DNA from: Neobacillus sp. YX16
GTDB taxonomy: Bacteria > Bacillota > Bacilli > Bacillales > Cytobacillaceae
Direction: 5' to 3'
Assembly: GCF_030123505.1 (NCBI RefSeq)
Contig: NZ_CP126115.1
Location: 5,408,001 to 5,472,000 of the forward strand
Length of the DNA stretch: 64,000 bases
Shown here: positions 10,688 to 31,924 of the stretch, piece after piece
Layout of the letters: each line of letters begins with the position of its first letter
How positions within the stretch are numbered: the first letter of the stretch is position 1
Translations under genes and position numbers: made by a program
Notes under the pieces: generated by a model
The model's input: only the letters and a program-made list of their open reading frames with translations
What the model was told of the DNA's origin: nothing
Databases searched by the model: none

Positions 10688-13768
<3,081 letters not shown>

Positions 13769-13771
13769 TTA

Positions 13772-14593
13772 TTACTTGATTGAGCCGCTTATTCCTTCCA
13801 CAATATATTTCTGCGCAAAGGCAAAAACGATTACTGGCGGAATGATCATAACAAGCGTCATTGCCATTATTGGAATAATTTGAAGCTCATGCACACCTTG
13901 GAATGATGCCAAACCAAGTGCCATCGTATATTTAGATTGATCATTCAAATAAATAAGTGGTCCTAAGTAGTCATTCCAAACCAAAATAATATTTAATACA
14001 GCAATCAATGTTAGAGGAGCCTTCATGATAGGTAAGAAAATTTTATAAAAGATTTGGAACTCATTTGCTCCATCAATTCTCGCTGCATTTTCTAAATCTT
14101 TAGGAATGTTCATTAAAAACTGCCTTAGCAAAAAGATATTATAAGCTGATCCGAAGAAGGCAGGGACGATCAGTGGTTTTAACGTATTGATCCAGCCAAA
14201 CATGTTAAATTCCATATAAAGTGGAATCATTGTCACATCCCATGGAATCATCATGGTGGATAGCAGAAGCATAAAGAGAATATTCTTGTATTTGAAGTCA
14301 TACCGTGCAAAACCATACGCAACTAAGGAACAGGATATTATCTGACCGATGGTCGTCAACACGGTAACTATCATTGAGTTTTTAAAATAGGTTCCAAATG
14401 GCTGGCTATTCCAAGCATCCATAAAATTACTTACAAGTGGTACATCAGGAACGAATTTGGGCGGAAAGCTAAATACTTCTGTTTCTGACTTGAGTGCTGT
14501 AATAAGTGCCCAGATAAACGGAAATAGGAAATAAAGAGAAAAGAGGACAAGAATGCTATAAACAATGATTTTATGTTTTCGGGTTATCTTCAT
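13772..14593 (-). CDS. ABC sugar permease, MalG/LacG family
   Basis: 273 aa with six predicted helices, the first at about residues 10-30 (IIVYSILVLFSLYFLFPFIWAL). The ATPase-coupling EAA motif reads ENAARIDGANEFQIFYKIFLPIMKAPL near residue 170. The start codon overlaps the stop of the MalF-type permease by 4 bp (ATGA), as is usual for such pairs. Together they form the channel for the binding protein at 15842-17077. No ATPase gene lies in the locus, so a shared MsmX-type ATPase elsewhere is likely, as is known for this family in Bacillus. Confidence 0.93.
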   Translation of the reverse strand: MKITRKHKIIVYSILVLFSLYFLFPFIWALITALKSETEVFSFPPKFVPDVPLVSNFMDAWNSQPFGTYFKNSMIVTVLTTIGQIISCSLVAYGFARYDFKYKNILFMLLLSTMMIPWDVTMIPLYMEFNMFGWINTLKPLIVPAFFGSAYNIFLLRQFLMNIPKDLENAARIDGANEFQIFYKIFLPIMKAPLTLIAVLNIILVWNDYLGPLIYLNDQSKYTMALGLASFQGVHELQIIPIMAMTLVMIIPPVIVFAFAQKYIVEGISGSIK

Positions 14594-15528
14594 TTTCTTT
14601 TCCTTCCTTTTCTTTCCTTTTTCACTTCAGCCTCATAGAATACCCATGCAGAGGATGACTTAAAGATGATCATCGTCAATATCAGGATGATGATAAACAT
14701 AAACCAAGCATTTGCACTGGCATAACCAAGTTCATGATGCTTAAAGGCATTGTTGTAAACAAATAGTCCGTAGAAATAGGTCGATTTTAATGGCCCGCCC
14801 CCTGTTAATAGCAACACTAACGTTAATTGCTGCAATGCTGCAATTACAGAGGTGATGATATTAAATAGGATTGTAGGTGTAATTGTAGGAATTGTTATGC
14901 TAACGAACTGTCTGATCGGACCTGCACCATCAATGGAGGCTGCTTCATACATTTCATGTGGAATCCCTTTAATATCTGTATAGAAAATTAACATCATGGT
15001 CCCGACTCCCCAAGCACTTGCAATCACAATGGTTACAATTGCCCACTTAGGATCAATCAGCCAGTCCGGTCCTTCTATACCAAGTAATGATAATATATAA
15101 TTTAAAACTCCATACTCAGAGTTAAACATCCAACCCCATACAATGGACACTGCCACACCGGATACAACAGCCGGAAGATAGAAGATTGTCCTGAAGACTT
15201 TAATCCCTTTGATTGGCTGCGTAATAAGCAGCGCCAGCACCAAAGCAACAAAGAGGTTTAATGGAACAAATATTAATGCGAACTTCAAGGTGATAGCGAG
15301 CGAATCATAAAACTGTGGATCAGCCGTAAACATCTTCTTAAAGTTATCAATACCAATAAACTTCGCTTCGCCAGCAATTGGCCAATCAAATAGACTCATG
15401 ATTAATGAAAAAACTAAAGGTCCTAATGTAAACACAATAAAGCCGATGATCCAAGGTAAAATAAATAAAAAGGGTACTCTTTTACGGACTAATGTAAATT
15501 TCTTTTGTTTGTTCTTTTTAGTAAACAT
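14590..15528 (-). CDS. ABC sugar permease, MalF/LacF family
   Basis: 312 aa with a basic N-terminus (MFTKKNKQKK) and about six helices, the first at FLFILPWIIGFIVFTLGPLV. The coupling motif EMYEAASIDGAGPIRQFVSITIPTI lies near residue 210. The start is the ATG at 15528 behind AGAGGG; a reading 54 codons longer would run into the GC-rich repeat and is rejected. It overlaps the next permease by 4 bp. It is separated from its binding-protein gene by 313 bp holding a stem-loop and a dispersed repeat, which probably lowers permease expression relative to the binding protein. Confidence 0.92.
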   Translation of the reverse strand: MFTKKNKQKKFTLVRKRVPFLFILPWIIGFIVFTLGPLVFSLIMSLFDWPIAGEAKFIGIDNFKKMFTADPQFYDSLAITLKFALIFVPLNLFVALVLALLITQPIKGIKVFRTIFYLPAVVSGVAVSIVWGWMFNSEYGVLNYILSLLGIEGPDWLIDPKWAIVTIVIASAWGVGTMMLIFYTDIKGIPHEMYEAASIDGAGPIRQFVSITIPTITPTILFNIITSVIAALQQLTLVLLLTGGGPLKSTYFYGLFVYNNAFKHHELGYASANAWFMFIIILILTMIIFKSSSAWVFYEAEVKKERKGRKRK

Positions 15529-15592
15529 ATATTTCCCTCTTAATGGTTTGACCTTTTTAGAAAATGAAATCCATTTTCGTTTATACTTTTTT

Positions 15593-15774
15593 GCTGTGTT
15601 AAAGGTAACTGTTGATTTTAGAACTCTGTTGATTTGTGCGGAAGGCGCGAGACTCCTGCAGGAGGACGGGACAGGGGAGACCCCGCTCATCTCTTAGCGC
15701 CGAGGAGGCTTCCCGAACCGCCTGCGGAAAGCGAAGCGACTGGAGCGCAAATCAACAGCCCAATTTAACACAGC
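15593..15774. repeat. GC-rich dispersed palindromic repeat with terminal inverted repeats
   Basis: An outer inverted pair GCTGTGTTAA/TTAACACAGC (15593-15602 and 15765-15774) encloses an inner pair CTGTTGATTTG/CAAATCAACAG (15626-15636 and 15748-15758) around a core much richer in G+C than the surroundings (GCGCGAGACTCCTGCAGG, CGCCGAGGAGGC). It resembles a dispersed intergenic element that I recall from many Bacillaceae genomes; its function is unknown to me. It lies between a binding-protein gene and its permeases and contains no supported gene. Confidence 0.75.
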
Positions 15775-15787
15775 CTACTTTTTAAAG

Positions 15788-15823
15788 ATGAGAATATATC
15801 ATGCTGCCATGATATATTCTCAT
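15788..15823 (-). terminator. Perfect 16-bp stem-loop after the binding-protein gene
   Basis: The arms ATGAGAATATATCATG and its complement (15788-15803 and 15808-15823) pair perfectly around a CTGC loop. It lies 18 bp after the stop of the binding protein and before the permeases. There is no clean T-run, so it is best read as a 3' stabiliser or partial terminator that keeps the binding-protein message more abundant. Confidence 0.6.
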
Positions 15824-15841
15824 TCAGATCAATGGACAATC

Positions 15842-17077
15842 CTACTTAGCAACACTATTTAAAGCTTCTTTAGGATCAACACGTGTACTTGGATTAAAGA
15901 TTTGTTCAAAGACTAAACTTAAATCATCTGACAACTTACTCCAGTCCTCTGTTACAAACGATGTTGGTGTATATCCTTCACTTTGTTCCAGCATGTTGTA
16001 AAAGACCTTCTTAATTGGATCTTCTTGCAGCTTTTCTGATTCAACTACGCTTTTTAATACTGGAAGTTCAAAGGAGAGTCGTGCTTTATTTGCTTGTTCC
16101 CCTGTCCAAAACTCCATAAATTTAAATGCCGCTTCTTTATGCTTAGAATCCTTTGACATCGCAATACCAGAAGAACTAACGATACTTGCACTTGGGTTAT
16201 CTCCAAATGAAGGAATTTCAACCACCCCATAGTTAATTCCAGCTTCCTCAAATGCGGACAGATACCAAGCACCGTTAACAAGCATACCTACTCTGCCTGT
16301 TTTCATCTCGGTATCACCATAGCCTTCAGTGGTAATCGCGATACCGTCTTCCAGCATATTTTGGAACATCGTAAACGTTTCAATTGACTTTTTAGAATTC
16401 AAATTTCCATCTAGTTTGCCTTTGCTGTCTACATAAGTAGCACCATTGCCCCATAAATACATTTCAAAATCATAGGGGTCAGGTTGACCTGGGAAAGCAA
16501 ATCCAGTGATTTTCTTTTCTTTATCTGTCAGCTTCTTAGCTGCTGCCTGTAGATCATCCCATGTCCAGCCAGCTTGAGGATACTCAAGTCCTGCTGCATC
16601 AAAAAGATCTTTATTATAGTAAACAACATGTGTCGTATAACCTACTGGAAGACCGTAAATATCTTCACCAACGGAGTTATAGTTCCATAATGCTTCATAG
16701 AAGTTACCCTTGTACTCTTCCCCTCTATCTTTTATATAAGAATCGAGCGGTTCAAGAGCATCTTTATATTGAGGGTAATTCCACATATACATGATATCCG
16801 GAGCATCCTTAGCACCAATACCTGCAGTAATCTTAGTGTCATAATCACCGCCATAAGCTTCCAAAACTACTTCTATATCGCTATTTTTCGCATTAAATTC
16901 ATCGATTAATCCTTGTTGAAGCTCGACATCGTCACCCACATCCCACGTTGCAAACCTTAACTTGACTTTGCCATCTTCTGCTTTCTCACCTTTTGTATTG
17001 GATGAACTGCAAGCTGATAAGAGCAGTGCTGCTACAATTGTAAAAAGAAATAAAAATTTCATTTTTGACGTCTTCAT
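15842..17077 (-). CDS. ABC sugar-binding lipoprotein of the beta-galactoside importer
   Basis: 411 aa. The signal peptide ends in lipobox LLLSAC (Cys about residue 23). The type 1 binding fold has the sugar-contact-rich VVYYNKDLFDAAGLEYPQAGWTW stretch around 145 and conserved Trp/Tyr residues throughout. It is a close relative of the 2677-3945 protein. The ATG follows AGGAGGG and a clear promoter at 17107-17135. It is the first gene of the permease/lacZ transcript, so it is presumably the main receptor for the oligosaccharide that LacZ degrades. Confidence 0.93.
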   Translation of the reverse strand: MKTSKMKFLFLFTIVAALLLSACSSSNTKGEKAEDGKVKLRFATWDVGDDVELQQGLIDEFNAKNSDIEVVLEAYGGDYDTKITAGIGAKDAPDIMYMWNYPQYKDALEPLDSYIKDRGEEYKGNFYEALWNYNSVGEDIYGLPVGYTTHVVYYNKDLFDAAGLEYPQAGWTWDDLQAAAKKLTDKEKKITGFAFPGQPDPYDFEMYLWGNGATYVDSKGKLDGNLNSKKSIETFTMFQNMLEDGIAITTEGYGDTEMKTGRVGMLVNGAWYLSAFEEAGINYGVVEIPSFGDNPSASIVSSSGIAMSKDSKHKEAAFKFMEFWTGEQANKARLSFELPVLKSVVESEKLQEDPIKKVFYNMLEQSEGYTPTSFVTEDWSKLSDDLSLVFEQIFNPSTRVDPKEALNSVAK

Positions 17078-20290: not shown

Positions 20291-21064
20291 CTATTCTGCA
20301 ACTTCCACTTGAATATTATTAGTTATGAAATAGTCTGCTACTTCATCTGAAAGTTCTTGATCGGTAATAAATAAATCGATATCATCTGGGCGTGCGAATG
20401 TGGCAATCGAACTTTTATTTATTTTACTGGAATCTAGTAAGGCAATAACTTTATTAGCAACAGACACCATGACCCTTTTTAATTCCACTTCATATAAGCT
20501 AAAATCCGAAAGTCCGTCCCTTATATTAAAGGCATAGGCAGACGTAAAAAGAATATCGATATTAATCTTTCTCAAAAGTTCTTCACCTAACAGCCCTTCA
20601 ACAGAATTAGATGCATTTCGGACAATACCGCCAATAATAATAACCGTTAAATATGGGTTTTCCTTCAGCATTGAAGCTGTAGCAAGTCCACTTGTGACGA
20701 CAGTTAACCTCATTTTTGTATCTCTTAAGTATTTTGCTAACTCAAAACAAGTGGTACTAGCATCTAAAAGAATACATTGACCTTCTTGGATTTGTTGAAA
20801 CGCTCTTTGTCCAATACGCTGCTTTTCAGCACGGGATTTCTTTTCACGATCCTCATACTTTTTATCAACTGGTTCCGAAACATCCTGTTTCATCATTGCT
20901 CCACCATGTGTACGAATAAGCAGACCTTGTTTTTCCATTTGATTTAAATCTGAACGTATCGTAGCAGCAGAAATACTAAGCAATCCGGTCAAATCATTTA
21001 CAGTTACTACCCCTTTTTCCGCCAGTAACTCTATAATTAAATTTCTGCGTTGGTCCGCGAACAT
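20291..21064 (-). CDS. DeoR-family transcriptional regulator
   Basis: 257 aa. The N-terminal winged helix begins RRNLIIELLAEKGVVTVNDL (residues 5-24) with the recognition part SAATIRSDLNQME; the C-terminal DeoRC sensor has LLDASTTCFELAKYL near 97 and VVTSG. These proteins bind phosphorylated sugars. It lies downstream of the carbohydrate locus at 21379-31924 and is its likely regulator. The TTTTCRTTTG-like sites near 30185-30208, 26672-26685 and 21207-21226 are candidate operators (inference). Confidence 0.93.
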   Translation of the reverse strand: MFADQRRNLIIELLAEKGVVTVNDLTGLLSISAATIRSDLNQMEKQGLLIRTHGGAMMKQDVSEPVDKKYEDREKKSRAEKQRIGQRAFQQIQEGQCILLDASTTCFELAKYLRDTKMRLTVVTSGLATASMLKENPYLTVIIIGGIVRNASNSVEGLLGEELLRKINIDILFTSAYAFNIRDGLSDFSLYEVELKRVMVSVANKVIALLDSSKINKSSIATFARPDDIDLFITDQELSDEVADYFITNNIQVEVAE

Positions 21065-21378: not shown

Positions 21379-22170
21379 TCATAAAATTGGACTGACATTA
21401 CTTGCTAGATGGGAGTCAAGTTGCTGAAGAATGACTTGAAAAGACTCAATATTCCAAGCAGCTCTGCCAATAAAGAGCCCATTCACATTTTCTAACTCGA
21501 TATAGTCAAGAAAATTATCATGATTCACACTGCCGCCGAATAAAATCGGGATCTCGCTGCCCACTTCTGCAAACAGCCCCTCCAACGTATTCCGAAGAAA
21601 GTCATGGATTTCGGCAACGTAGGAAGCATCCGCAGGAATTCCTTGTTCGCCAATTGCCCAGACAGGTTCATAGGCAATCAACACCTCTTTGGCCTGTTCC
21701 TCTGATAGATTCTGCAGGCAAACTTTTAGTTGTGCTGCCAATGTTTCTTTCGAAATCTGCTGTTTCTTCTGATCTATATTTTCGCCAATACAAACCAGTG
21801 GTTTAATAGAATAATTTAAAGCAGCATGCACTTTTTTATTAATCGCCTCATCATTTTCATTAAAATACTGCCTGCGTTCTGAATGGCCTAATTCAATCAT
21901 ATCAATGCCTATTTCAGCTAGCATTCGCGGAGAAATTTCACCCGTATACGGGCCGCTATCCTCCCAATGCATATTTTGTGCACCCAAATAAATATTGGCA
22001 GCCGTTGTTAATGGCTTAATGGGAACTAGGGACGTATGAGACGGAATAATAAATAGTTGCAGGTTCGAGGTAACCGCCTCAGAAATCTCTCTAAGACCCT
22101 TCGTGAATTGTATTCCTTCTTCAATTGTTTTTGTCATCTTCCAATTGGTGCCGATCCAAATCTTTTTCAT
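21379..22170 (-). CDS. TpiA-like isomerase, probably EryH/LerI-type (tetrulose phosphate)
   Basis: 263 aa TIM barrel of the triosephosphate isomerase family. Catalytic signs are IGTNWKM (Lys about residue 11), IELGHSERR (His near 100) and AYEPVWAIG (Glu near 171); the phosphate loop FGGSV is near 212. The N-terminal GTNWKMTKT resembles the GTSWKMNKT I recall from EryH of erythritol operons rather than the GNWKMN of glycolytic TpiA. The start is the ATG at 22170 behind AAGGAG. It closes an operon with DhaKL and a TIM isomerase. A second role as extra TpiA handling DHAP is possible. Confidence 0.82.
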   Translation of the reverse strand: MKKIWIGTNWKMTKTIEEGIQFTKGLREISEAVTSNLQLFIIPSHTSLVPIKPLTTAANIYLGAQNMHWEDSGPYTGEISPRMLAEIGIDMIELGHSERRQYFNENDEAINKKVHAALNYSIKPLVCIGENIDQKKQQISKETLAAQLKVCLQNLSEEQAKEVLIAYEPVWAIGEQGIPADASYVAEIHDFLRNTLEGLFAEVGSEIPILFGGSVNHDNFLDYIELENVNGLFIGRAAWNIESFQVILQQLDSHLASNVSPIL

Positions 22171-22202
22171 TTCAAAAATCTCCTTCACTCAGTCGACATC
22201 AA

Positions 22203-23102
22203 TTATCTACTCGCTACTAAGCTCAATGCCCTTTCTAAAATCGACCGCACCATTTTTTCGTTATCTTGGTAATTAACTTTATCGTTTCCTCTCACTTCCA
22301 CAGCAACACGTAAACCATGATCAGATTGGAGACTGAGTTCGTCCGCTTTTCGCAAAATATCACTAATTTTCTCAATCGTCAGGAAACCAGGTTCCCCGAT
22401 TGGCATATGAAAGTCCCCATATAATTCATTGTTTGGATCGACTACCGCATTGGAAAAATGAATTTGATGGATATGCGTTTTAGCTAGTTCTAACGCATCG
22501 GAAATGACTTCCTTATTTAATGCAGCATGTGCAGTATCAAACGCTAAGCCAATATTGCTGTACTTTTTCGCCACATTTGAAAGCAATTCGACGGTATCAT
22601 CCATCGGCCCAATCAAACGTTTTTTGTGAGCAAAACGATCAAGATGTTCAACCAAAACGTTCATATTATACTTACTTGCTTCTTCACAAATATCGCATAA
22701 GGCATCATAAAAGCCCTCCATCGCCTCTAGTCGACGTTCTGGACCTGGGTCTAGACCTGGGACAAACGCAATATTCTCCACTCCGCATTCAGCAGCCAAA
22801 TAAATATTTTCTTTGATCTGTCGAACGGATTCAGAGCGCAGCTGTGAATCTAAGGCTGACACATCAAGATTATTTTTATCTATTAAGAAGGTTAACCACT
22901 GTGTCAGTTGGAAGTTGTATTTTTCCTTTAATGACAAGATACCTCTGCGTTCTTGTTTATCATCAACACCAGCAATTTCAAATGAACGATAGAAACCCTC
23001 AGGAGCCATTTTCTCAAGTAAATTTCCTGTAAATCCTCTTTCATGTTTAACTGGAAAATAAATTTCTGGAACAAGAAGGGATGTAATAAAGTGTGTACTC
23101 AT
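22203..23102 (-). CDS. Sugar phosphate isomerase/epimerase (xylose isomerase-like TIM barrel)
   Basis: 299 aa AP-endonuclease-2-type TIM barrel. Metal and acid residues are suggested by VLVEHLDRF (Glu/His, about 155), GLAFDTAHAALN (Asp/His, about 193), IHQIHFSNAVVDP and the C-terminal VAVEVRGND. It is the intact relative of the pseudogene at 28321-29220. It lies 21 bp after the aldolase gene and 32 bp before the TpiA-like gene. Members interconvert ketoses and aldoses or epimerise ketoses, including tetruloses and apiose-like sugars; the exact reaction is unknown. Confidence 0.85.
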   Translation of the reverse strand: MSTHFITSLLVPEIYFPVKHERGFTGNLLEKMAPEGFYRSFEIAGVDDKQERRGILSLKEKYNFQLTQWLTFLIDKNNLDVSALDSQLRSESVRQIKENIYLAAECGVENIAFVPGLDPGPERRLEAMEGFYDALCDICEEASKYNMNVLVEHLDRFAHKKRLIGPMDDTVELLSNVAKKYSNIGLAFDTAHAALNKEVISDALELAKTHIHQIHFSNAVVDPNNELYGDFHMPIGEPGFLTIEKISDILRKADELSLQSDHGLRVAVEVRGNDKVNYQDNEKMVRSILERALSLVASR

Positions 23103-23123
23103 TTTATTTTTCTCCTTTACAAA

Positions 23124-23909
23124 TTAATGGAATGATTGAATCAATTCAAAGCTAGATTGATAGGTTTGGTACGCCTCTTCAGCAGTCCCGTTTTGATGAA
23201 TAATCCGATTTAACCCGGCCACTACACCAATTGGATTTTCATCTAATGTAATATTCCTGCCCACAGCCACACCCTTTGCCCCGACATCCATGCAGTGCTT
23301 CACATATTTAAAGTAGTCATGGATGTTATCCGTTTTCGGTCCCCCTAAGACCATGACGGGACGTTTTGCTGCTTCTATGATTCTTCTATCTTCTTGATCA
23401 CCAGTCAATCTGGTTTTAATAATATCCGCGCCCAGCTCTGTCCCAATCCGTGCCGCGGCCGCAATCGTTTCGATTTGATTCGATTCCGGTATTGTCACAT
23501 GGTAGCTATATGGCAGGGTTTCACACATATAAGGAACATTCCAGTGATCTGCTCCTTTAGCTAGATCCCAAGCCATTTTATGTGAGAGTACTTCATCATC
23601 AGCCCCGAGCTTTAATGCGTCTTTTACCGTAAGAAGATCTGTTGTTTGCGGAATTCGCGCGTCGAATACACTGGTGGAAAGATCAGCACGAACAACTAAT
23701 CCCACGTCCGTAAAGGCAGATGCATACATTTTTGCCATTCCATATGTAACAATCACAGCATCAAGTCCGTTCTCAATCAGTTGCGGCAATATAGCAATCG
23801 TTTGATCAATTCCCGCCGTTTTGGTAGAAAAGTAGTATCCATCCAACGCAAGCGTAATTGATTTTCCATCGTTTGAAAAAATTTGCGACATTCTTCTTGT
23901 CTTGGACAT
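23124..23909 (-). CDS. Class I (DhnA/LsrF-type) aldolase
   Basis: 261 aa with the chosen ATG at 23909 (GGAG six bases upstream); an upstream ATG at 23936 is possible but has a weaker site. It has the DhnA/DeoC fold, with TLALDGYYF at the first strand, GADIIKTRLTGD carrying a likely Schiff-base Lys (about residue 165), VLGGPK and AVGRNI phosphate-binding ends. The family cleaves or condenses fructose 1,6-bisphosphate, 2-amino-heptanoate or LsrF-type substrates. In this locus a condensation of DHAP with erythrose 4-phosphate is attractive, because GlpX could then act on the bisphosphate (inference). Confidence 0.82.
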   Translation of the reverse strand: MSKTRRMSQIFSNDGKSITLALDGYYFSTKTAGIDQTIAILPQLIENGLDAVIVTYGMAKMYASAFTDVGLVVRADLSTSVFDARIPQTTDLLTVKDALKLGADDEVLSHKMAWDLAKGADHWNVPYMCETLPYSYHVTIPESNQIETIAAAARIGTELGADIIKTRLTGDQEDRRIIEAAKRPVMVLGGPKTDNIHDYFKYVKHCMDVGAKGVAVGRNITLDENPIGVVAGLNRIIHQNGTAEEAYQTYQSSFELIQSFH

Positions 23910-23949
23910 ATCGGGCTCCATTTCTTTATTATTCATGAATACCTTGTAA

Positions 23950-23975
23950 AAAAGATCTCACGGTGGAGATCTTTT
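23950..23975 (-). terminator. Hairpin between the lyase and aldolase genes
   Basis: Perfect 10-bp arms AAAAGATCTC/GAGATCTTTT with a 6-base loop lie just before the aldolase start. The TTTT run follows on the minus strand, so it may terminate part of the transcripts or mark an RNA processing point. Confidence 0.6.
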
Positions 23976-23984
23976 CCCTTCATA

Positions 23985-24908
23985 TTATTTAACTGGCATA
24001 TTTTCTAACAAGTCAGCTTGAATCAGAATCTTTTTAAGCTCCTCAATCTTATGGGCACCTAATGAACGTGCTGGCGGCAGGACATGTGTTGAAATATCCA
24101 GCCCCCTCAATTTCATGGCTTCTTTTACCACACTAACAAACGGTGAATCTAGTTTGTACATTGTCGGCATAAGCGCCATCCGCTGATGAAGTGCTACAGC
24201 TTCATCAAAACGCTTCTCTTTAAATGCCTTGTATATACCAATTGCGAGTTCCGGAGCGAAATTAACAGAGGCACTGATCGCGCCATCCCCGCCAAGTGTC
24301 AAGGTTTGGAAAAAATGATCATCAAAACCGGAGAAGACAGAAAAATCTGGGTGTTTTCCTTTAACAGTTAAGATCATATCTCGAATATGCGCTACATTTT
24401 CAACCGTTTCTTTAATTCCGACGATATTATCGTGTGCATCAACTAATTTAAGGACGAATTCCGGATTCAAATCCTGCCCTGACATGGTAGGGAAATTGTA
24501 TAGTAAAATCGGTAAATGAACGGAGCTGGCAATTTCACTATAATGAGCAAATAAATTCTCCTCGGTCAAAGACCAATAATAGGGATTGATAATTACAACC
24601 GCATCTGCTCCTACTGATTCCGCATGCTGACTGAGCAGAATGACTTCACGCGTATTAGTGCTTCCTGTACCAATTAATACCGGGACCCTGCCGTTTACAT
24701 ATTCCGTTGTAAAGGATGCCACTTCCTTACGTTCCTCCACAGACATTTGCGAAAACTCGCCGCCTGTTCCAAGAAAGAACAATCCATCTACACCAGAATC
24801 AATTAAGAAATCAATAACACTTGCCATTCCCTTTTTATCAAGTCCACCTTGTTCGTCAAAAATGAGCGATACTGGGGGAATAACCCCGTGAAACTTTTTG
24901 CCTGCCAT
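23985..24908 (-). CDS. DapA-family lyase/synthase (class I aldolase superfamily)
   Basis: 307 aa, typical DapA/NanA-family length. The Schiff-base Lys is in IVGIKETVENV (about residue 165) and the Tyr in ILLYNFPTMSG (about 138). GTGGEF near 47 is the usual pyruvate carboxyl-binding loop, so a pyruvate-releasing or 2-keto-acid reaction is expected. The start chosen is the second of two adjacent ATGs, with AGGAGG seven bases upstream (24911 is the other). It overlaps no gene but lies 37 bp after the DhaL stop. It is not biosynthetic dapA by context; it may be a sugar-acid aldolase or dehydratase. Confidence 0.85.
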   Translation of the reverse strand: MAGKKFHGVIPPVSLIFDEQGGLDKKGMASVIDFLIDSGVDGLFFLGTGGEFSQMSVEERKEVASFTTEYVNGRVPVLIGTGSTNTREVILLSQHAESVGADAVVIINPYYWSLTEENLFAHYSEIASSVHLPILLYNFPTMSGQDLNPEFVLKLVDAHDNIVGIKETVENVAHIRDMILTVKGKHPDFSVFSGFDDHFFQTLTLGGDGAISASVNFAPELAIGIYKAFKEKRFDEAVALHQRMALMPTMYKLDSPFVSVVKEAMKLRGLDISTHVLPPARSLGAHKIEELKKILIQADLLENMPVK

Positions 24909-24945
24909 CATATTTCCTCCTATTCCTTTGGGCGTTTTAAAACTT

Positions 24946-25614
24946 TTATTGTTGAGCAGAGGCTTTTTCAACCCACTCTCTCATCGATTTAAACATAATC
25001 CAGACAGTAGTTGCCCCTGCATCTTGGTGGCCAATTGCCCGTTCACCAAGTGATTTCGCTCTTCCAAACTTTGCAACATATTCCTTCGATTTTTCAACTC
25101 CATCGGCTGCACATTTCTCAGCAACTATAAGCCCTTCTAGTAAACTATGATTTGCTTCGACACTTTGTTTAATCCCAAAGGCAGCAGGCTCAAGTGCGTC
25201 AATCATCGTTTTATCTCCTAATTCAGCCTTCCCGCGTTCCTTGATGGATTTTACCGACCCTTCAAGAATTTGCGCTAAAACTGGCAAAGTCAATTCCTCC
25301 TGAGCTTCAAGGCACTTCACTCCGCCGGTAAACAAGGTGCCAAAAATAACTCCGGACGCTCCGCCCATGTTCGCAATCATCGACATGCCAATCGTTTTAA
25401 AAACATCATTGATGGTTGTAAACTCTTTTTGTTTTAAATTTTCTTCTGCTTTTGTAAAACCAACAGACATGCCAATACCGTGATCTCCATCACCGATAGC
25501 GCTATCAATTTTTGTTAAAAACGGCTTGTTTTCACGGACTTGATCTCCTACATACAGAAACATTTCCTTTACTTGTGAGGCATTCAACTTAACAGCCTGG
25601 ATACTATTTTGCAT
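24946..25614 (-). CDS. dhaL: DhaL-type kinase nucleotide-binding subunit
   Basis: 222 aa. The Mg-nucleotide motif DSAIGDGDHGIGMSVGF lies near residue 40, NMGGASGVIFGTLF near 80 and GRAKSLGERAIGHQDAGA near 187. It overlaps the dhaK end by 11 bp. No dhaM (PTS phosphoryl donor) is nearby, so the pair probably uses ATP directly, as in the erythrulose kinases of this superfamily (established for mycobacterial homologues; inference here). Its partner binds the substrate. Confidence 0.92.
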   Translation of the reverse strand: MQNSIQAVKLNASQVKEMFLYVGDQVRENKPFLTKIDSAIGDGDHGIGMSVGFTKAEENLKQKEFTTINDVFKTIGMSMIANMGGASGVIFGTLFTGGVKCLEAQEELTLPVLAQILEGSVKSIKERGKAELGDKTMIDALEPAAFGIKQSVEANHSLLEGLIVAEKCAADGVEKSKEYVAKFGRAKSLGERAIGHQDAGATTVWIMFKSMREWVEKASAQQ

Positions 25615-26635
25615 ATACGTTCCCTCCGATGCTTGTATGTGTCAAACCTTTTTTGTAATACGGTGAGTCTGCTGGTGCATTATATAAATCTTTTAATTGA
25701 TCATCTAATTTCAATAAGGTAATGGAGAGTCCAGCCATTTCCTGTGTCGTGCAATAGCTGTTAACATCCATGTCATATGCTGTAATCTCTTTATCTTCCA
25801 AAATTTGCGCCACTCTGCGGTTTACAATTAATAGTTCCATTAAAGTTGTCGATCCAAGGCCATTTACCAATACAGCCACTTCATCGCCTGCCTCAATATT
25901 GCTTTCCGCTAACAACTTATCCATCAACTTATCTGTTAACGCGTCAGCAGACATCATTTTTGTCCGTTCCATCCCTGGTTCCCCGTGGATGCCCATGCCA
26001 ATCTCAATTTCATCATCACTAAGTGTGTACGGCGGCTCGACTGCACCAGGAATAGATCCCGGAGCTAAGGCAACACCAATGGAGAAGGTATGATCATTTG
26101 CTTTTTGAGCTACTTGGGTGACTTCTTCTAAAGATAATCCTTTTTCTGCTGCTGCACCGGCAATCTTAACAACGAAAACATCTCCGGCAATTCCTCTGCG
26201 ATCTCCTTTTCGTTCAACAGGAGCAGATGCAACGTCATCTGTAACAAGTACTGTTTTCGTCTGAATATCTTCCATTTCTAATAATTCTTCTGCCATGCCG
26301 AAATTTAAAACATCACCGCTATAATTTCCGTAGATAAATAGAACGCCTTTTCCAGAATCAACTGCTTTTGCCACTTCAAACACATTGGTTGGCGGTGGTG
26401 CTGCAAAGACATTTCCAAGTGTGACGCCATCCGCTAGTCCTTCTCCAATTAACCCCAAGAACAACGGTTCATGGCCGCTGCCACCACCTGTAACCACTGC
26501 CACTTTATCTTTAAGATTTCGGCGAATGACTCCGTTTACATTTTCAACTTTTTGATATGTACTCTTATAAGCTGCCAAAAACCCCTCAATTGTTTCTTCT
26601 ACTACGCGTTCGGGTTGGTTAATAATTTTCTTCAA
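25604..26635 (-). CDS. dhaK: DhaK-type dihydroxyacetone/tetrulose kinase substrate subunit
   Basis: 343 aa. Substrate-binding residues sit in VVTGGGSGHEP (about residue 50) and in the GMGIHGEPGMER stretch, where the His (about residue 217) forms the hemiaminal with the keto-sugar. The GNYSGDVLNF segment is the usual DhaK active-site block. It has its own promoter (26705-26733). With DhaL it phosphorylates dihydroxyacetone or a homologous keto-tetrose; the neighbouring TpiA-like and RpiB-like isomerases favour a tetrulose. Confidence 0.93.
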   Translation of the reverse strand: MKKIINQPERVVEETIEGFLAAYKSTYQKVENVNGVIRRNLKDKVAVVTGGGSGHEPLFLGLIGEGLADGVTLGNVFAAPPPTNVFEVAKAVDSGKGVLFIYGNYSGDVLNFGMAEELLEMEDIQTKTVLVTDDVASAPVERKGDRRGIAGDVFVVKIAGAAAEKGLSLEEVTQVAQKANDHTFSIGVALAPGSIPGAVEPPYTLSDDEIEIGMGIHGEPGMERTKMMSADALTDKLMDKLLAESNIEAGDEVAVLVNGLGSTTLMELLIVNRRVAQILEDKEITAYDMDVNSYCTTQEMAGLSITLLKLDDQLKDLYNAPADSPYYKKGLTHTSIGGNVYAK

Positions 26636-26671
26636 ACTAAACTCCCCTTTCTATTAAAAAACAAAAATTAT

Positions 26672-26733
26672 ATTTTCGTTTTTTTGTGTTTGTTGTTATT
26701 TACTATCATAACCTTCATGTTTTATTGTGTCAA
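26672..26733 (-). promoter_or_regulatory. dhaK promoter with candidate DeoR operator
   Basis: A strong minus-strand promoter: TTGACA (26733-26728), a 17-bp spacer, then TATGAT (26710-26705). Directly downstream is an AAACGAAAAT element (26685-26672 region), similar to the sites in the divergent region at 30185-30370. A protein bound there would block initiation or early elongation. Confidence 0.7.
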
Positions 26734-26797
26734 TTTTCATTTTATTTTTAATTGATGAAGTTTTCTGACCCAATTCGACAAAAAACCACATTTCTAT

Positions 26798-26836
26798 AAA
26801 AAAAATAAGAGGACTACGATTAGCAGCCCCCTTATT
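26798..26836 (-). terminator. Terminator of the MFS gene
   Basis: An AATAAGGGG...CCTCTTATT stem on the minus strand followed by eight T residues, 12 bp after the stop codon. It separates the MFS transcript from dhaK, which then restarts from its own promoter. Confidence 0.8.
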
Positions 26837-26847
26837 CATTTGACTCA

Positions 26848-28170
26848 TTATGCTGCTTCAGCAGGCTTAATCGGTTCCTTTACAACAAACCAATAGAAGA
26901 AGGCTGCAAATCCAGCGATGATCCCGCCAGAAATAAATGCCACAGAATAAGAACCTGTTGTATCCAAAATGATACCTGTTACTAATGGTGCAAATGCACC
27001 TCCGAAGTAACCGCCGAAGTTTTGGATCGCTCCGACAGAACCAACCATTGCTGGTGGTGCAACGTCCCCAGATAGCGCCCAAGCGCTGCCTGTAATCGCT
27101 GAAATAACACAAAGAGCTAAAGTCATCACTGTAATAGTAATTCCTAATCCATCTACAAATGGAATCATAATAACGAAAGCTGCTGCTAGAAGGGCACTAA
27201 CCGCAATCAAACCGCGTTTTGCGTTAATCGGAGAACAAATTTTCTTATCCGCTAACACCTTCGTAATGTAACCTCCGCCTAAGTTACCGACAATTCCGCC
27301 AAAGTAAGGAATTGCCGCATAAATACCAAGTTCTTTAAAAGTAATATCTTGTGTGTTTAATAGATATAGTGGTAAGAATGTAAGGAAAATATTCCAAATC
27401 CAAATTGTACAGAAGAAACCGCCGATCATTCCCCATACGCTTCTATACTTAAATAACTCTCTCCATTTAATATTGGCAGATTCAACTGTATCGGTGCTCG
27501 CACCGCCTTCAGCCTTAATATAGTCATATTCTTCTTTCGAAAGCATTTTACTTTTATCAGGAGTTTTATAGAATTTCATAAATAAAAGGGCAAAGATAAT
27601 ACCAATAGCACCAGTAATGAAGAATAGAGCACGCCAGCCAAATGCAACCTGAATCGCAACTAGAATAGGCGGTGCAATTGCAGGACCAATTTTAGATGAT
27701 GCATCCCAAAACCCAGTCGCTAATCCTCTTTCACTCTTAGGGAACCATTGGGCAGTAATCTTGGCATTAGAAGGCATACATGGTGCTTCCCCTACTCCAA
27801 GTAAGAATCTGGCTCCAACTAAAGTGAGCATCTTGTTACATGCACCTGTCATAGCAGTTGCAATACTCCACCAAAGAACAGCAATTGAATAAATTCGCTT
27901 CGCACCAAATTTATCAATCAACCAACCGGAAGGAAGCTGCATCATTGCATAAGTCCAAGAGAAAATAGTACCTAATAGACCGATATGGGTCATATTTAAA
28001 TCCAATTCCTTCATCATAGCTGGGGCTGCAATGGCAAGGTTTGTTCTATCAAGGTAGTTGATAATCCCGCCGATCAACAGCCAAATAACAACGGTCCAAC
28101 GGAAATTCTTTTTTGTTTTCCCCCCAGCCTCTATGGGGAAATCTGTCTGAAGCGCTTGACCTGTTTTCAT
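26848..28170 (-). CDS. MFS transporter, anion:cation symporter (hexuronate/phthalate-like) family
   Basis: 440 aa with twelve predicted helices. It has the first-helix motif INYLDRTNLAIAAPAM (residues 37-52) that marks the ACS family, the loop GWLIDKFGAKR near 85, and GVGEAPCMPSNAK near 130. Members import hexuronates, tetronates or other sugar acids by proton symport. The start is the ATG at 28170 behind AGGAGG. It is preceded by a cre box and lies in the carbohydrate locus, so it is the probable importer for the whole pathway. Confidence 0.9.
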   Translation of the reverse strand: MKTGQALQTDFPIEAGGKTKKNFRWTVVIWLLIGGIINYLDRTNLAIAAPAMMKELDLNMTHIGLLGTIFSWTYAMMQLPSGWLIDKFGAKRIYSIAVLWWSIATAMTGACNKMLTLVGARFLLGVGEAPCMPSNAKITAQWFPKSERGLATGFWDASSKIGPAIAPPILVAIQVAFGWRALFFITGAIGIIFALLFMKFYKTPDKSKMLSKEEYDYIKAEGGASTDTVESANIKWRELFKYRSVWGMIGGFFCTIWIWNIFLTFLPLYLLNTQDITFKELGIYAAIPYFGGIVGNLGGGYITKVLADKKICSPINAKRGLIAVSALLAAAFVIMIPFVDGLGITITVMTLALCVISAITGSAWALSGDVAPPAMVGSVGAIQNFGGYFGGAFAPLVTGIILDTTGSYSVAFISGGIIAGFAAFFYWFVVKEPIKPAEAA

Positions 28171-28214
28171 GTAAAATCCTCCTCTAACAATCTTTTTGTT
28201 TTTATACATTTTCT

Positions 28215-28230
28215 CAGATAGCGCTTTCAC
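28215..28230 (-). promoter_or_regulatory. CcpA cre box upstream of the MFS gene
   Basis: Minus-strand TGAAAGCGCTATC (28229-28217) matches the cre core at every position; only the last outer positions deviate. It lies about 45 bp before the MFS start, where bound CcpA would act as roadblock for glucose repression. Confidence 0.65.
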
Positions 28231-28320
28231 AGATGGTTAAAAAATCTATCCTGGTCTTACGCAGTAAAGGATCGTTGATAGTCGAGTCCGTTCTGCTGCC
28301 AAGGATATACTTGCCCTAGG

Positions 28321-29220
28321 TTATTTACTTCCGACTAGGTTCATCGCACTTTCTAATGCAGCCCTAATCGTTCTTTCATTCGCAAAATAATCATTCTTGT
28401 CTTTTCCCTGAACTTCGATTGCAACAGGTAAGCCTATTTCCGATTGAATCCCAAGCTCATTAGCTTTTTGCAAAATTTGGGACATCTTTTCAATCGTTAG
28501 AAAGCCTGGTTCACCAATTGGCATATGATTATCTCCATACAAAGGGCTCTCGGGATCTAGGACAACATTTGCAAAATGCAGACGGTCCATTGTGGATTTT
28601 GCTAATTCTAATGAAGTAAAAATATCTTCACCATTCAGGGAAACATGTGCTGTATCAAAGACGAGACCAACATTCGGATATTTCTCTTTAACCTTCGAAA
28701 TAATTGGAACCGCTTCACTTGTTAGACCTAATACTCTCTTTTTATGCACCTCTCGATCCATTGCCTCAATCGATAGATGCATATTAAATGTGGCGGCTTC
28801 CTAACAGATTTCACAAAGACTTTCATAAAATGCTTCAAGCCCTTGCTTACGTAAAGAGATACCTGGATCAGGGCCAGGAACAAACCCAACGGTAGACACG
28901 CCGCACTCTGCGGCTAAATATAGGCTTTCTTTAACCTGTTTAACGGGTCTCTCTCTTAAACTAGCATCAATCGCAGAAACATTTAGCTCCGTCTTATACG
29001 TTAAAAATGTTAACCACTGGAAGATTGATAAGTTATTTTGTACCTTTGCTTGTAAAATTCTTTTTCGATCTTCCTGATCATAACCATCGCCAATTTCAAA
29101 CGAACGATAAAAACCTTGTTACCCCAAATTTTCTACTATACTCGCAGCAAATCCCTTTTCATCTTTTACAGGAAAAAACACTTCAGTGACGAGCAAGGAT
29201 GGAATAATTCGGTTACTCAC
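28321..29220 (-). pseudogene. TIM-barrel sugar isomerase broken by two in-frame stops
   Basis: A 300-codon frame begins with GTG at 29220 (overlapping the TAG of the previous gene) and continues to 28321, but it holds a TAA at 29121-29119 and a TAG at 28803-28801. Translated through the stops it is collinear with the intact isomerase at 22203-23102: SLLVTEVFFPVK, GFYRSFEIG, YLAAECGV, FVPGPDPG, FDTAH and IGEPGFLTIEKM. The TAG stands at the position of Glu in CDICEEA of the paralogue. Only the C-terminal 153 residues could restart, without most of the barrel. There are no frameshifts, so decay appears recent. Confidence 0.88.
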
Positions 29221-30047
29221 TAGATTTTCACCCCATTGACAATTGGCTTTAATTTTTCATCTACATATTTACTAATATCATAGATACATTGATCGGCATT
29301 CGTTTTTGTTTCTTCTGTTTCTTCCTCGACCATAATCCATCCATCATATCCATAATCAACTAACGCTTGCACAATGGCAGGGAAATCAATATCGCCATAG
29401 CCCATTTTCATCCACTCAAAACCTTTCGAGCAATCTTTAAAATGAACATGTTTGATAATTGGTAAGTTGTTTTTAACCACTTCGACTGGATCCATTCCAC
29501 CAGCCGCAATGTGGCCAACATCAGGTGTATAAGCTACATATCTAGTATCTAATTCTTCAAAAAGAAGTTTGTAATCGCTTTCTATTCTAAAATAAGAAGT
29601 TGCTGGAGAATGTGGATGGAATACAGCTATGACGCCATTTTCGACCGCACGTTTACTTACAGCATTCACGCAGCTAATAATCTCTCTTTGTCTTTTTACT
29701 AAATTGTCTCGATTAGGACCTACTCGTGCTGGTAAATTTAACTTTGCATTCGGGAAGTGCTTTAAATAGTTAATATAATAATCTGCCCGTTGCTTTTCTT
29801 CTTCCGATTCGGTATCACTTTCCCAGCTGAATGGCAGTGTGATTGCTGCTAGCTCAAGATCCAAACTATCAAGCTTTTCTTTTAGTTTTTCAGGTGCTTC
29901 ATTGTATTTCCCCAATAATGCATACTGAACGTCAATCCCCTTGAATCCAGCTTTCTTAACCGTATCGATCATATGATCTAAGCAGTCTACCTTCTCATCA
30001 TAATCGAGTACCCATGTTGAACCGTGACAACCAAACTTAATCGTCAT
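29220..30047 (-). CDS. IolE/Hyi-like TIM-barrel sugar isomerase/epimerase
   Basis: 275 aa AP-endonuclease-2-type barrel. Likely metal ligands are in VIAVFHPHSP (His, about 143), YTPDVGHIAAGG (Asp/His, about 180), IKHVHFKD near 205 and the C-terminal GWIMVEEE. It is not closely similar to the other isomerase of the locus. It is the first gene after a TTGACA promoter at 30166 and has the ATG start behind GGGG-type purines. It probably acts on the imported sugar or its keto form before phosphorylation. Confidence 0.85.
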   Translation of the reverse strand: MTIKFGCHGSTWVLDYDEKVDCLDHMIDTVKKAGFKGIDVQYALLGKYNEAPEKLKEKLDSLDLELAAITLPFSWESDTESEEEKQRADYYINYLKHFPNAKLNLPARVGPNRDNLVKRQREIISCVNAVSKRAVENGVIAVFHPHSPATSYFRIESDYKLLFEELDTRYVAYTPDVGHIAAGGMDPVEVVKNNLPIIKHVHFKDCSKGFEWMKMGYGDIDFPAIVQALVDYGYDGWIMVEEETEETKTNADQCIYDISKYVDEKLKPIVNGVKI

Positions 30048-30138
30048 TTGCGTATTCCCCCTTTTTTACCTATGGAAGTTTTCATTCCTTAGTAGATGTT
30101 TGCAAATACTAAGCAAACAAGTTGTTCCTCTATTTAGA

Positions 30139-30208
30139 ATATTATCATTTGTTTTTGTTTTGTCAATTACTTTTGATAAAAATATTTTCATTTGAAAACA
30201 AACGAAAA
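30139..30208 (-). promoter_or_regulatory. Leftward promoter and palindromic operator
   Basis: On the minus strand TTGACA (30166-30161), 16 bp, then TAATAT (30144-30139). Upstream lies the inverted repeat TTTTCATTTG-AAAA-CAAACGAAAA (30185-30208), the clearest example of the recurring TTTTCRTTTG site. The rest of the 365-bp divergent gap (30048-30412) contains no gene. Confidence 0.65.
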
Positions 30209-30330
30209 TTAAGGTCCTCTATAAGTAGTTAGGAATCAACTTTTTATCCTTTTTTATGTTTCCTTCCTATAATAAATCTATTATATACGGACTTAGTGAA
30301 CAATAAAAATTGTTCGTTTACTTTCATATT

Positions 30331-30370
30331 TTTTCGTTTTAACAGAAATTAATTGACAATAACGAAAATA
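30331..30370 (+). promoter_or_regulatory. Rightward promoter region of the rpiB-like gene
   Basis: TTTTCGTTTT (30331-30340) and AACGAAAATAA (30361-30371) flank a TTGACA at 30353-30358. With 17 bp spacing the -10 would be a weak AAAAAT; the exact -10 is uncertain. The flanking sites point to control by the same DeoR-type protein as the leftward operon. Confidence 0.5.
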
Positions 30371-30412
30371 AATGAAAAAATATGGTTAATCAAACTAATT
30401 GGAGTGATAATT

Positions 30413-30877
30413 GTGAAAATCGGAATAGGTTCAGATCACAATGCTTTTCAAATGAAAGAGGAAGTAAAATCATATATTGCTAGTTTAGGTCATGAAGTAG
30501 TCGATTATGGCTGTTATTCAGAAGATGCAATCGACTATCCTGGCGTGGCCTTTAACGTAGCAACTGACATACAAACGAACAAACTAGAACGCGGAATACT
30601 TTTTTGCGGAACTGGAATCGGAATGTCGATTGCGGCCAATAAAGTTCCAGGGATTCGTTCTGCGCAATGCCATGATGTTTTTTCAGCAGAACGTGCACAA
30701 CTAAGCAACAACGCCCAAATCATGACTATAGGTGCGAAAGTTATTGGTGCAGAGCTAGCCAAAAAAGTAGTCGAATCCTACTTAAACGTTTCCTTCCAAG
30801 GTGGGAATTCCGCAAGAAAAATTGATCAAATCATGAATAAAGAAAAAGAACATCTGCTTAACGGTACATGCGGATAA
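30413..30877 (+). CDS. RpiB-family sugar phosphate isomerase, perhaps EryI-type
   Basis: 154 aa, the usual RpiB/LacAB length. It has GIGSDHNAF at the N-terminus, the catalytic Cys in LFCGTGIGMSIAANK (about residue 67) and SNNAQIMTIGAKV near 98. The start is a GTG with GGAGTG upstream. The family interconverts ribulose/ribose 5-phosphate, allose, galactose or erythrulose/erythrose phosphates; EryI of erythritol operons is RpiB-like. With DhaKL and a TpiA-like isomerase beside it, erythrose 4-phosphate formation is the preferred reading. Confidence 0.85.
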   Translation: MKIGIGSDHNAFQMKEEVKSYIASLGHEVVDYGCYSEDAIDYPGVAFNVATDIQTNKLERGILFCGTGIGMSIAANKVPGIRSAQCHDVFSAERAQLSNNAQIMTIGAKVIGAELAKKVVESYLNVSFQGGNSARKIDQIMNKEKEHLLNGTCG

Positions 30878-30946
30878 ATACTATGTAACCGTTAGATAAT
30901 CAAATTGTTTTATAGTCTTTTTTAATGAATGGGGGGGGAAAAGTTC

Positions 30947-31924
30947 ATGCAAACGAAAAATAGAGAAGTTAATACTGTATGTACACAAGGTTTAGTGATG
31001 GATTTCCTTGCAATATCACAACAAGCCGCTATTGCCTCCTACCCTTGGATCGGGAAGGGTAATAAATATGATGCTGATGGAGCTGGAACCGAATCAATCC
31101 GGAAACACATGAACCTTATTGATATGACTGGAGTTATTGTGATTGGTGAAGGAGAAATGGATGAGGCTCCAATGCTATACATTAATGAAGTACTCGGGAC
31201 TCGTAATGGACCTGTAGTAGATATCGCTGTAGATCCCGTTGAAGGAACGACCTTAATGGCCAAGGGTCAAGATAACTCACTAACTGTCATCGCTGTTGCC
31301 GCTCGCGGAAGTTTACTACATGCTCCGGATATGTACATGAAAAAAATCGCTTGTGGACCTAAAGCAAGAGGCTGCATTAATATTGATTTACCCTTAACAG
31401 AAAATATAAAAGCTGTCGCTAAAGCTCTGGGTAAAAATGTAAAGGACATCAATGTTATGATTCAAGACCGCCCGCGTCATGAAGAACTAATTAATGAAGT
31501 CATTAAATCTGGGGCTCGGGTTAAATTGTTTTCGGATGTTGATATCACTGGAGCTATCGCAACTGCCTTACATGAAGTAGACGTTGATATTTTAGTAGGA
31601 ATTGGCGGTGCCCCAGAAGGTGCCATTGCCGCCACCGCCTTGAAATGTCTAGGAGGAGACTTTCAAGCTAAACTTATGCCTCAAGATGAAGCAGAATTTA
31701 ATCGTTGCATTAAGATGGGAATCCCAAATCCTGAAGCAGCTTTAACCATTGATGATATTGTTAAAACAGATGATTGCTTCTTTGTCGCAACGGGAATTAC
31801 TGATGGACAGCTGTTAAAAGGGGTACAGAAAAAAGAAAATGGTGCAATGCTGACCCAATCATTAGTGATTGTTGGCGGTCAAATGAAAAACTCCCAAGTT
31901 ATCGACGCAACTTTTTTTAAATGA
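30947..31924 (+). CDS. glpX: Class II fructose-1,6-/sedoheptulose-1,7-bisphosphatase (GlpX)
   Basis: 325 aa. Metal and substrate motifs are VIGEGEMDEAPML (about residue 68), DIAVDPVEGTTLMAKG (about 93-108) and LVGIGGAPEGAIAATAL near 220. The start is the ATG behind a G-run. It lies 69 bp after the RpiB-like gene on the same strand. GlpX enzymes act on fructose bisphosphate and, in several bacteria, on sedoheptulose bisphosphate. A copy dedicated to a sugar locus rather than gluconeogenesis suggests dephosphorylation of a product of the local aldolase (inference). Confidence 0.92.
   Translation: MQTKNREVNTVCTQGLVMDFLAISQQAAIASYPWIGKGNKYDADGAGTESIRKHMNLIDMTGVIVIGEGEMDEAPMLYINEVLGTRNGPVVDIAVDPVEGTTLMAKGQDNSLTVIAVAARGSLLHAPDMYMKKIACGPKARGCINIDLPLTENIKAVAKALGKNVKDINVMIQDRPRHEELINEVIKSGARVKLFSDVDITGAIATALHEVDVDILVGIGGAPEGAIAATALKCLGGDFQAKLMPQDEAEFNRCIKMGIPNPEAALTIDDIVKTDDCFFVATGITDGQLLKGVQKKENGAMLTQSLVIVGGQMKNSQVIDATFFK

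Follow-up and report, generated by a model that had tools for sequence, protein, structure and literature searches.

A possible redox-neutral operon linking oxidised sugar acids to tetrulose phosphate metabolism in Neobacillus sp. YX16

Background

Which substrate is served by a bacterial gene cluster that places a DhaK-type kinase beside two sugar-phosphate isomerases, an aldolase, a bisphosphatase and an importer of the major facilitator superfamily (MFS)? The question is raised by a stretch of 64,000 nucleotides (hereafter the window) covering positions 5408001-5472000 of the 6.23 Mb single-contig genome of Neobacillus sp. YX16. A preliminary description of this cluster had proposed a tetrulose pathway with a sugar-acid branch and a sedoheptulose bisphosphate ending. 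Our tentative answer, to which we assign a probability of roughly 45%, is a redox-neutral operon, probably under DeoR control, for a sugar acid that is taken up in oxidised (keto) form and would enter metabolism as a tetrulose phosphate. The operon is probably a variant of tetrulose pathways that are already known.

In the proposed route, the MFS carrier would import the acid, and Iso2 followed by an IolE-like enzyme would relocate its keto function and set free a short ketose, of which L-erythrulose, formed with loss of CO2, is the most likely. DhaKL would then convert L-erythrulose, independently of DhaM, to L-erythrulose 1-phosphate, which a LerI-type TpiA and RpiB would turn into erythrose 4-phosphate for the pentose phosphate network, within which GlpX may supply hexose or heptulose phosphate. 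The aldolase DhnA would act on the kinase product, splitting a ketose 1-phosphate into dihydroxyacetone phosphate (DHAP) and an aldehyde, and the YagE-like DapA lyase may serve a side branch that handles a 2-keto-3-deoxy acid.

Gene content and conservation of the cluster

The minus strand encodes, in order, the IolE-like protein, a broken Iso2a, the MFS importer, DhaK, DhaL, DapA, DhnA, Iso2b, TpiA and a DeoR-family regulator, and the genes for RpiB and GlpX diverge from this unit. Profile matches recovered all the genes that had been named before (TpiA, DhnA, DapA, DhaL, DhaK, the MFS importer, RpiB and GlpX), and, as had been stated, there is no polyol dehydrogenase among the open reading frames of the cluster, which rules out an erythritol or threitol operon. 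The IolE-like, Iso2b, Iso2a and DeoR genes, the operator-like motif and the gap in the aldolase had been overlooked. The neighbourhood comparison suggested in the preliminary description found the same gene order, with an intact aldolase, in five other Neobacillus-type genomes (L003-L007, two of them labelled Bacillus sp.), at 71-95% identity to the window genes (Iso2a of L003-L007 was compared with Iso2b only, at 53-56%). The gene set is thus not a product of chance.

When stretches of roughly 19-31 kb were recounted at a threshold of 50 bits, 27 clusters contained both an IolE-like gene and DhaK: the window, L003-L007, L010, L113 (with L130), L076-L088, L108 (with L128), L109 (with L133), L111 (with L131), L112 (with L129), L115 (with L132) and L117. 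Three further handles denote records of clusters in this list (L012 for L113, L089 for L010 and G168 for L006), and the IolE-like loci without DhaK (L110, L114, L116 and L118) were set aside. A DeoR relative is present in 26 of the 27 clusters, RpiB in 25, and a TpiA-type gene in 17. GlpX is present in 12, of which six are Neobacillus-type clusters, transketolase in seven, transaldolase in three and a class II Fba beside GlpX in one. The cluster of L108 with L128 is a double one, in which two IolE-like genes accompany both types of DhaK described below.

For comparison, we used 44 loci from the DhnA search with a threshold of 100 bits. Above this threshold none of them encodes DhaK, DhaL, TpiA, RpiB, GlpX, transketolase, transaldolase, class II Fba, IolE, Iso2, DapA, HIBADH, PdxA or 2HADHb, and one (L047) encodes 3HCDH; L029 has a weak transaldolase match (71.6 bits). 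The comparison is rough, as many of these loci are enterobacterial, lactobacillar or from actinomycetes, some are short and L053 contains DhnA only in part.

Kinase and isomerases of the proposed tetrulose part

DhaK (25604..26635, minus strand) scores 436 bits with NF011049 (cut-off 492) and 378 bits with TIGR02363 (cut-off 406) and keeps the motifs GHEP, YSGDV and GMGIHG; DhaL (24946..25614, minus strand) passes TIGR02365 (179 bits, cut-off 138.3). The earlier observation that DhaM is missing can be extended to the whole genome, where TIGR02364 has no match, although the model matches 3 of 14 control genomes, E. coli and L. lactis included. The kinase thus lacks the phosphotransferase system (PTS) subunit, as in the LerK-LerI-DerI type of tetrulose operon, and a PTS-type dihydroxyacetone kinase (DhaKLM) is ruled out.

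The solved protein nearest to TpiA (21379..22188, minus strand) is 11ef (219 bits), named L-erythrulose-1-phosphate isomerase by its depositors, and the best triose-phosphate isomerase (TPI) reaches 182 bits. Eleven of the 17 TpiA-type genes of the clusters form one group in the tree (support 86/94) and share the motifs IG[ED]xGxPA and GLF[IV]GRxAW with 11ef. Three canonical TPIs (the other TPI of this genome, 35% identical to the cluster TpiA, and two solved ones) have neither motif and carry IGTG and GGASL instead; the six other cluster copies (L077, L088, L111, L115, L129 and L130) show other forms of the motifs. The second isomerase, RpiB (30353..30877, plus strand), passes TIGR01120 (145.7 bits, cut-off 138.65), and its true start is probably downstream of the listed TTG.

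In the tree of DhaK we distinguished two clades, K1 (19 copies, support 86/83), to which the window copy belongs, and K2 (11 copies, 100/98). Within the stretches read, a TpiA-type gene accompanies 15 of 17 K1 clusters and none of the eight K2-only clusters; L077 and L088, which have a long-branched DhaK or copies of both clades, are not part of this comparison. The distribution fits a split between L- and D-erythrulose, and we predict that K1 kinases act on L-erythrulose, for which TpiA would be needed, and K2 kinases on D-erythrulose, for which it would not.

Enzymes and carriers of the proposed acid side

Two PF01261 TIM-barrel families stand at the proposed entry. The IolE-like protein (29220..30047, minus strand) fails the inosose dehydratase model TIGR04379 (79.7 bits, cut-off 290) and is a candidate keto-sugar-acid isomerase or decarboxylase. 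At E-values up to 1e-60 it turned up in 14 genomes out of 397 searched for the order and in 11 out of 159 for one family; the IolE-like search listed 120 of 316 relatives. Its tree splits into two clades, with a HIBADH-type neighbour for 12 of 13 copies in one and 2 of 20 in the other, both of the latter in double clusters. The window copy belongs to the clade of 20. Iso2b (22203..23102, minus strand) has E152, D189, H215 and E269 invariant over 31 aligned rows, which we infer to be metal ligands. Its paralogue Iso2a (about 28321..29218, minus strand) is interrupted by two in-frame stops in this strain, and the copies of L003-L007 are open at 298-301 aa. A search of 398 genomes of the class with Iso2 matched two (the window genome and G041), so that the Iso2 counts given here rest on the IolE-centred loci. 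L110, L114 and L116 encode an IolE-like protein, Iso2 and an FGGY kinase without DhaK, and in L114 these genes are followed by an Ldh_2-family dehydrogenase and by a carrier that resembles KdgT (227 bits, cut-off 453.8).

The closest solved relative of the DapA-family lyase (23985..24971, minus strand) is YagE (373.6 bits, against 152.7 for the next solved protein), a 2-keto-3-deoxy acid aldolase, and the lysine of GIK(D/E)T, which we take to be catalytic, is aligned. The sugar-acid branch suggested earlier gains from this match. The MFS importer (26848..28230, minus strand), presumably of the class named ACS, is nearest to the D-galactonate transporter subfamily (TIGR00893 290.5 bits, cut-off 395). 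Carriers vary over the 27 clusters: the MFS type of the window is present in eight, a second MFS type in two (L076 and L077), a third in one (L083), Tct in five, TRAP in one and GntP in three.

A gene of the 3HCDH, PdxA, HIBADH or 2HADH kind is present in 19 of the 27 clusters. None of these four kinds occurs in the other eight, namely L010, L109 and the six clusters of Neobacillus type. The same eight, and no others, have the MFS type of the window, and all carry Iso2 and DhnA. DhnA is also present in a ninth cluster, L113, together with PdxA, a 2HADH gene and a pair of DhaK genes. The association of DhnA with the absence of the four dehydrogenase kinds (Fisher 4e-6) is descriptive, as related clusters were counted as independent. 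The pairing of this carrier with the lack of these dehydrogenases suggests that the acid taken up may already be oxidised. We also considered a partner dehydrogenase encoded elsewhere in the window genome. This was rejected for the two kinds searched, as the best matches are 37% (3HCDH kind) and 36% (HIBADH kind) identical, and the cluster copies are 76-100% and 68-100% identical among themselves; the search did not extend to PdxA and 2HADH.

Regulation

The DeoR-family regulator (20291..21064, minus strand; best model AgaR, 193 bits, cut-off 260) probably controls the adjacent operon. The divergent region contains a promoter-like TTGACA-16-TAATAT (30139..30166, minus strand), nearly identical in six clusters, and two operator-like sites on the minus strand, TTTCGTTTGTTTTC (30194..30207) and TTTCATTTATTTTC (30364..30377), the second of which overlaps RpiB at its listed 5' end. 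Their motif, TTTCRTTTRTTTTC, was picked by eye from the window and L003-L007. It is found twice in the window, both times in the divergent region, and a search that allowed one mismatch gave no others (0.52 expected by chance; two reached in 11 of 100 shuffles). Exact copies in the divergent regions of L003-L007 number 2, 2, 1, 2 and 0, and L003, L004 and L007 have one copy ahead of DeoR. Of the 21 other clusters, seven have the motif: it lies in the gap ahead of RpiB in L010, L076, L083, L088, L113/L130 and L117, whereas in L080 it is located where DeoR begins. Over all fetched loci it is present in 21 of 135, all of them IolE-cluster records or pieces thereof, and in none of the 44 comparison loci. 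This distribution ties RpiB and GlpX moderately well to the long operon, with which they may be co-regulated.

The aldolase and the alternative routes

DhnA (23124..23936, minus strand) is a class I aldolase of 270 residues in this strain and 281 in the otherwise nearly identical P0001. The 11-residue segment that is gone from the window copy is kept in all 30 aligned relatives, among which several of its residues are nearly invariant. Its counterpart in the solved MJ0400 is at residues 115-125 or so, which, judging from the alignment, probably form barrel strand 4. K174, presumably the Schiff-base lysine, is still present; the enzyme is likely impaired in this strain, and intact copies are encoded in L003-L007. 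The search for DhnA relatives listed 120 of 139. Of 50 DhnA loci surveyed, 38 have an FGGY kinase, seven DhaK and five neither. Since a sugar kinase is thus a partner in 45 of 50, cleavage of a ketose phosphate suits DhnA better than synthesis of sedoheptulose bisphosphate. Copies paired with DhaK group with those of the window and L109 in a single clade (99/91), which lies within the FGGY-paired copies of Bacillaceae. Besides DhnA and the kinase, the FGGY operon of L027 encodes a galactitol-type EIIC (400.7 bits, cut-off 542.2), a protein of the glycerol-3-phosphate antiterminator family, a 2-hydroxyacid dehydrogenase and a short-chain dehydrogenase/reductase (SDR), and similar operons are found in L008 and others. 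GlpX (30929..31924, plus strand; TIGR00330 363.3 bits, cut-off 259.3) is one of three in the genome. A further GlpX at G000:C1:786069-786993 (L057, L059) is possibly damaged at its start, as its first part matches as a separate piece.

The ending proposed in the preliminary description, in which DhnA would join erythrose 4-phosphate and DHAP to sedoheptulose 1,7-bisphosphate and GlpX would yield sedoheptulose 7-phosphate, appears unlikely to us. It draws on the divergent region, with its promoter and operator-like sites, that RpiB, GlpX and the long operon share, and on the order of genes in relatives: RpiB and GlpX are followed by class II Fba and transketolase in L088 where they are followed by transaldolase and transketolase in L086 and L108/L128 (L076 has RpiB, GlpX, transaldolase and transketolase in a different order), and transaldolase is absent from the stretches read of all nine DhnA clusters. 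There are precedents as well. The two reactions have been described before in Brucella, where different enzymes catalyse them, and growth on erythritol there requires transaldolase or Fba with bisphosphatases, according to the available part of PMC11005471; the plasmid-encoded GlpX of B. methanolicus is a sedoheptulose bisphosphatase (SBPase) and the SBPase variant is in use, according to that of PMC7092467. Against this ending, the window DhnA lacks its conserved segment, and two matches in the genome exceed the transaldolase cut-off, although for one of them a stop is reported within the region matched. Moreover, outside the Neobacillus-type clusters, six in number, DhnA and GlpX do not occur together: DhnA is without GlpX in L010, L109 and L113, and GlpX is without DhnA in six clusters. 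The GlpX assayed in the accessible text on Brucella also has a preference for fructose bisphosphate, with 74 per mM per s compared with 9 (PMC11005471).

Quite unlikely, in our view, is plain dihydroxyacetone assimilation, in which DhaKL would form DHAP, TpiA glyceraldehyde 3-phosphate, DhnA fructose bisphosphate and GlpX fructose 6-phosphate. All four families fit, DhaL passes a dihydroxyacetone kinase model, and an archaeal class I fructose bisphosphate aldolase is among the solved relatives of DhnA. This route has no role for RpiB, present in nearly all clusters, and leaves the transketolase and transaldolase partners unexplained; moreover, TpiA is nearest to LerI and the genome has another TPI. 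A similarly low probability attaches to a pentulose route, in which a six-carbon keto acid would be converted by the IolE-like protein and Iso2 to a pentulose, phosphorylated by DhaKL to a pentulose 1-phosphate and cleaved by DhnA to DHAP and glycolaldehyde. L109, which has DhnA, the IolE-like protein, Iso2, the MFS carrier and DhaKL without TpiA, RpiB and GlpX, would suit it, as would the FGGY kinases that accompany DhnA elsewhere and, in the DhaK-less L110, L114 and L116, the relative of an XylB-passing FGGY kinase. The LerI-type TpiA of the Neobacillus-type clusters is given no role by it, and we know of no DhaKL that acts on pentuloses. Very unlikely is a fourth possibility, that the intact DhnA of the relatives interconverts L-erythrulose 1-phosphate with DHAP and formaldehyde; with the kinase and both isomerases at its side, this would amount to a natural version of the synthetic erythrulose monophosphate cycle. 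The window genome could handle formaldehyde, since two of its genes score above the family cut-off for hexulose-6-phosphate synthase (G000:C1:431182-431796 and 5494912-5495514), and the authors of the synthetic cycle, in the available part of their paper, flag the co-occurrence of aldolase and isomerase for study and consider a natural cycle possible (PMC10733421). Growth was supported there by FucA and RhaD only, as far as that part goes, and by neither the class I YihT nor the class II FbaA, which speaks against the idea.

Discussion

Several observations weigh against the proposed entry of an oxidised acid as tetrulose phosphate. The tetrulose part of the preliminary description is partly supported, through the tetrulose-type TpiA beside DhaKL and RpiB. 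RpiB fails the D-erythrulose-4-phosphate isomerase model, which is rhizobial (138 bits, cut-off 240). TpiA passes generic TPI models, and 11ef is not joined with support to the TpiA group in the tree. In the stretches read, the K1 clusters L010 and L109 lack TpiA, and L109 lacks RpiB too. On the acid side, sugar importers of the ATP-binding cassette (ABC) type, which are not acid carriers, are present in 6 of 27 clusters, five of the six with GH43. The eight clusters without the four dehydrogenase kinds amount to three lineages, other kinds of dehydrogenase were not counted, and L109 has a weak SDR nearby. The HIBADH-type partner in related clusters scores above the threshold for tartronate semialdehyde reductase (364.8 bits, cut-off 340.75), so that the HIBADH branch may be other chemistry and an assignment as aldonate dehydrogenase is not secure. 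No decarboxylase was identified for the proposed loss of CO2. A literature search on pentonate-to-tetrulose decarboxylation came back almost empty.

Apart from the cluster, the window encodes a LacZ-type beta-galactosidase (1020 aa), two ABC permeases and a sugar-binding lipoprotein at 10688-17077.

These natural clusters would combine a DHAP-type aldolase with isomerases and a kinase of the tetrulose type; the available text of PMC10733421 flags such a combination for study. The two DhaK clades also give a stereochemical prediction. If the proposed route is correct, Bacillaceae would have a path from acidic sugars to erythrose 4-phosphate, and tetrulose metabolism would reach beyond polyols.

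An apionate route is known in which 3-oxo-isoapionate decarboxylase gives L-erythrulose. The cluster resembles it in the proposed sequence from a sugar acid to L-erythrulose and on to a kinase and isomerases; however, neither a lactonase nor an apionate oxidoisomerase was recognised in the window cluster. The original work on LerK, LerI and DerI reportedly concerned tetritol catabolism, with EryH and EryI in Brucella and rhizobia. That system shares with the cluster a DhaK-type kinase and TpiA-type and RpiB-type isomerases in one unit, whereas the cluster has no polyol dehydrogenase and adds an acid-type MFS importer, the IolE-like protein, Iso2, the YagE-like lyase, DhnA and GlpX. The LerK, LerI and DerI enzymes have since been put to use, according to the available part of PMC10733421. 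With the D-xylonate operon yagEFG of E. coli, as given in the accessible portion of PMC13279387, the common feature is the YagE-like aldolase, but no sugar-acid dehydratase was recognised in the window cluster. The SBPase routes of Brucella (PMC11005471) and of the ribulose monophosphate pathway of B. methanolicus (PMC7092467), as far as the available parts of both papers describe them, are similar in that an aldolase and a bisphosphatase replace transaldolase in the handling of erythrose 4-phosphate. They use Fba with Fbp/Bbp or a plasmid-encoded GlpX, whereas here a gapped class I DhnA lies inside a tetrulose cluster.

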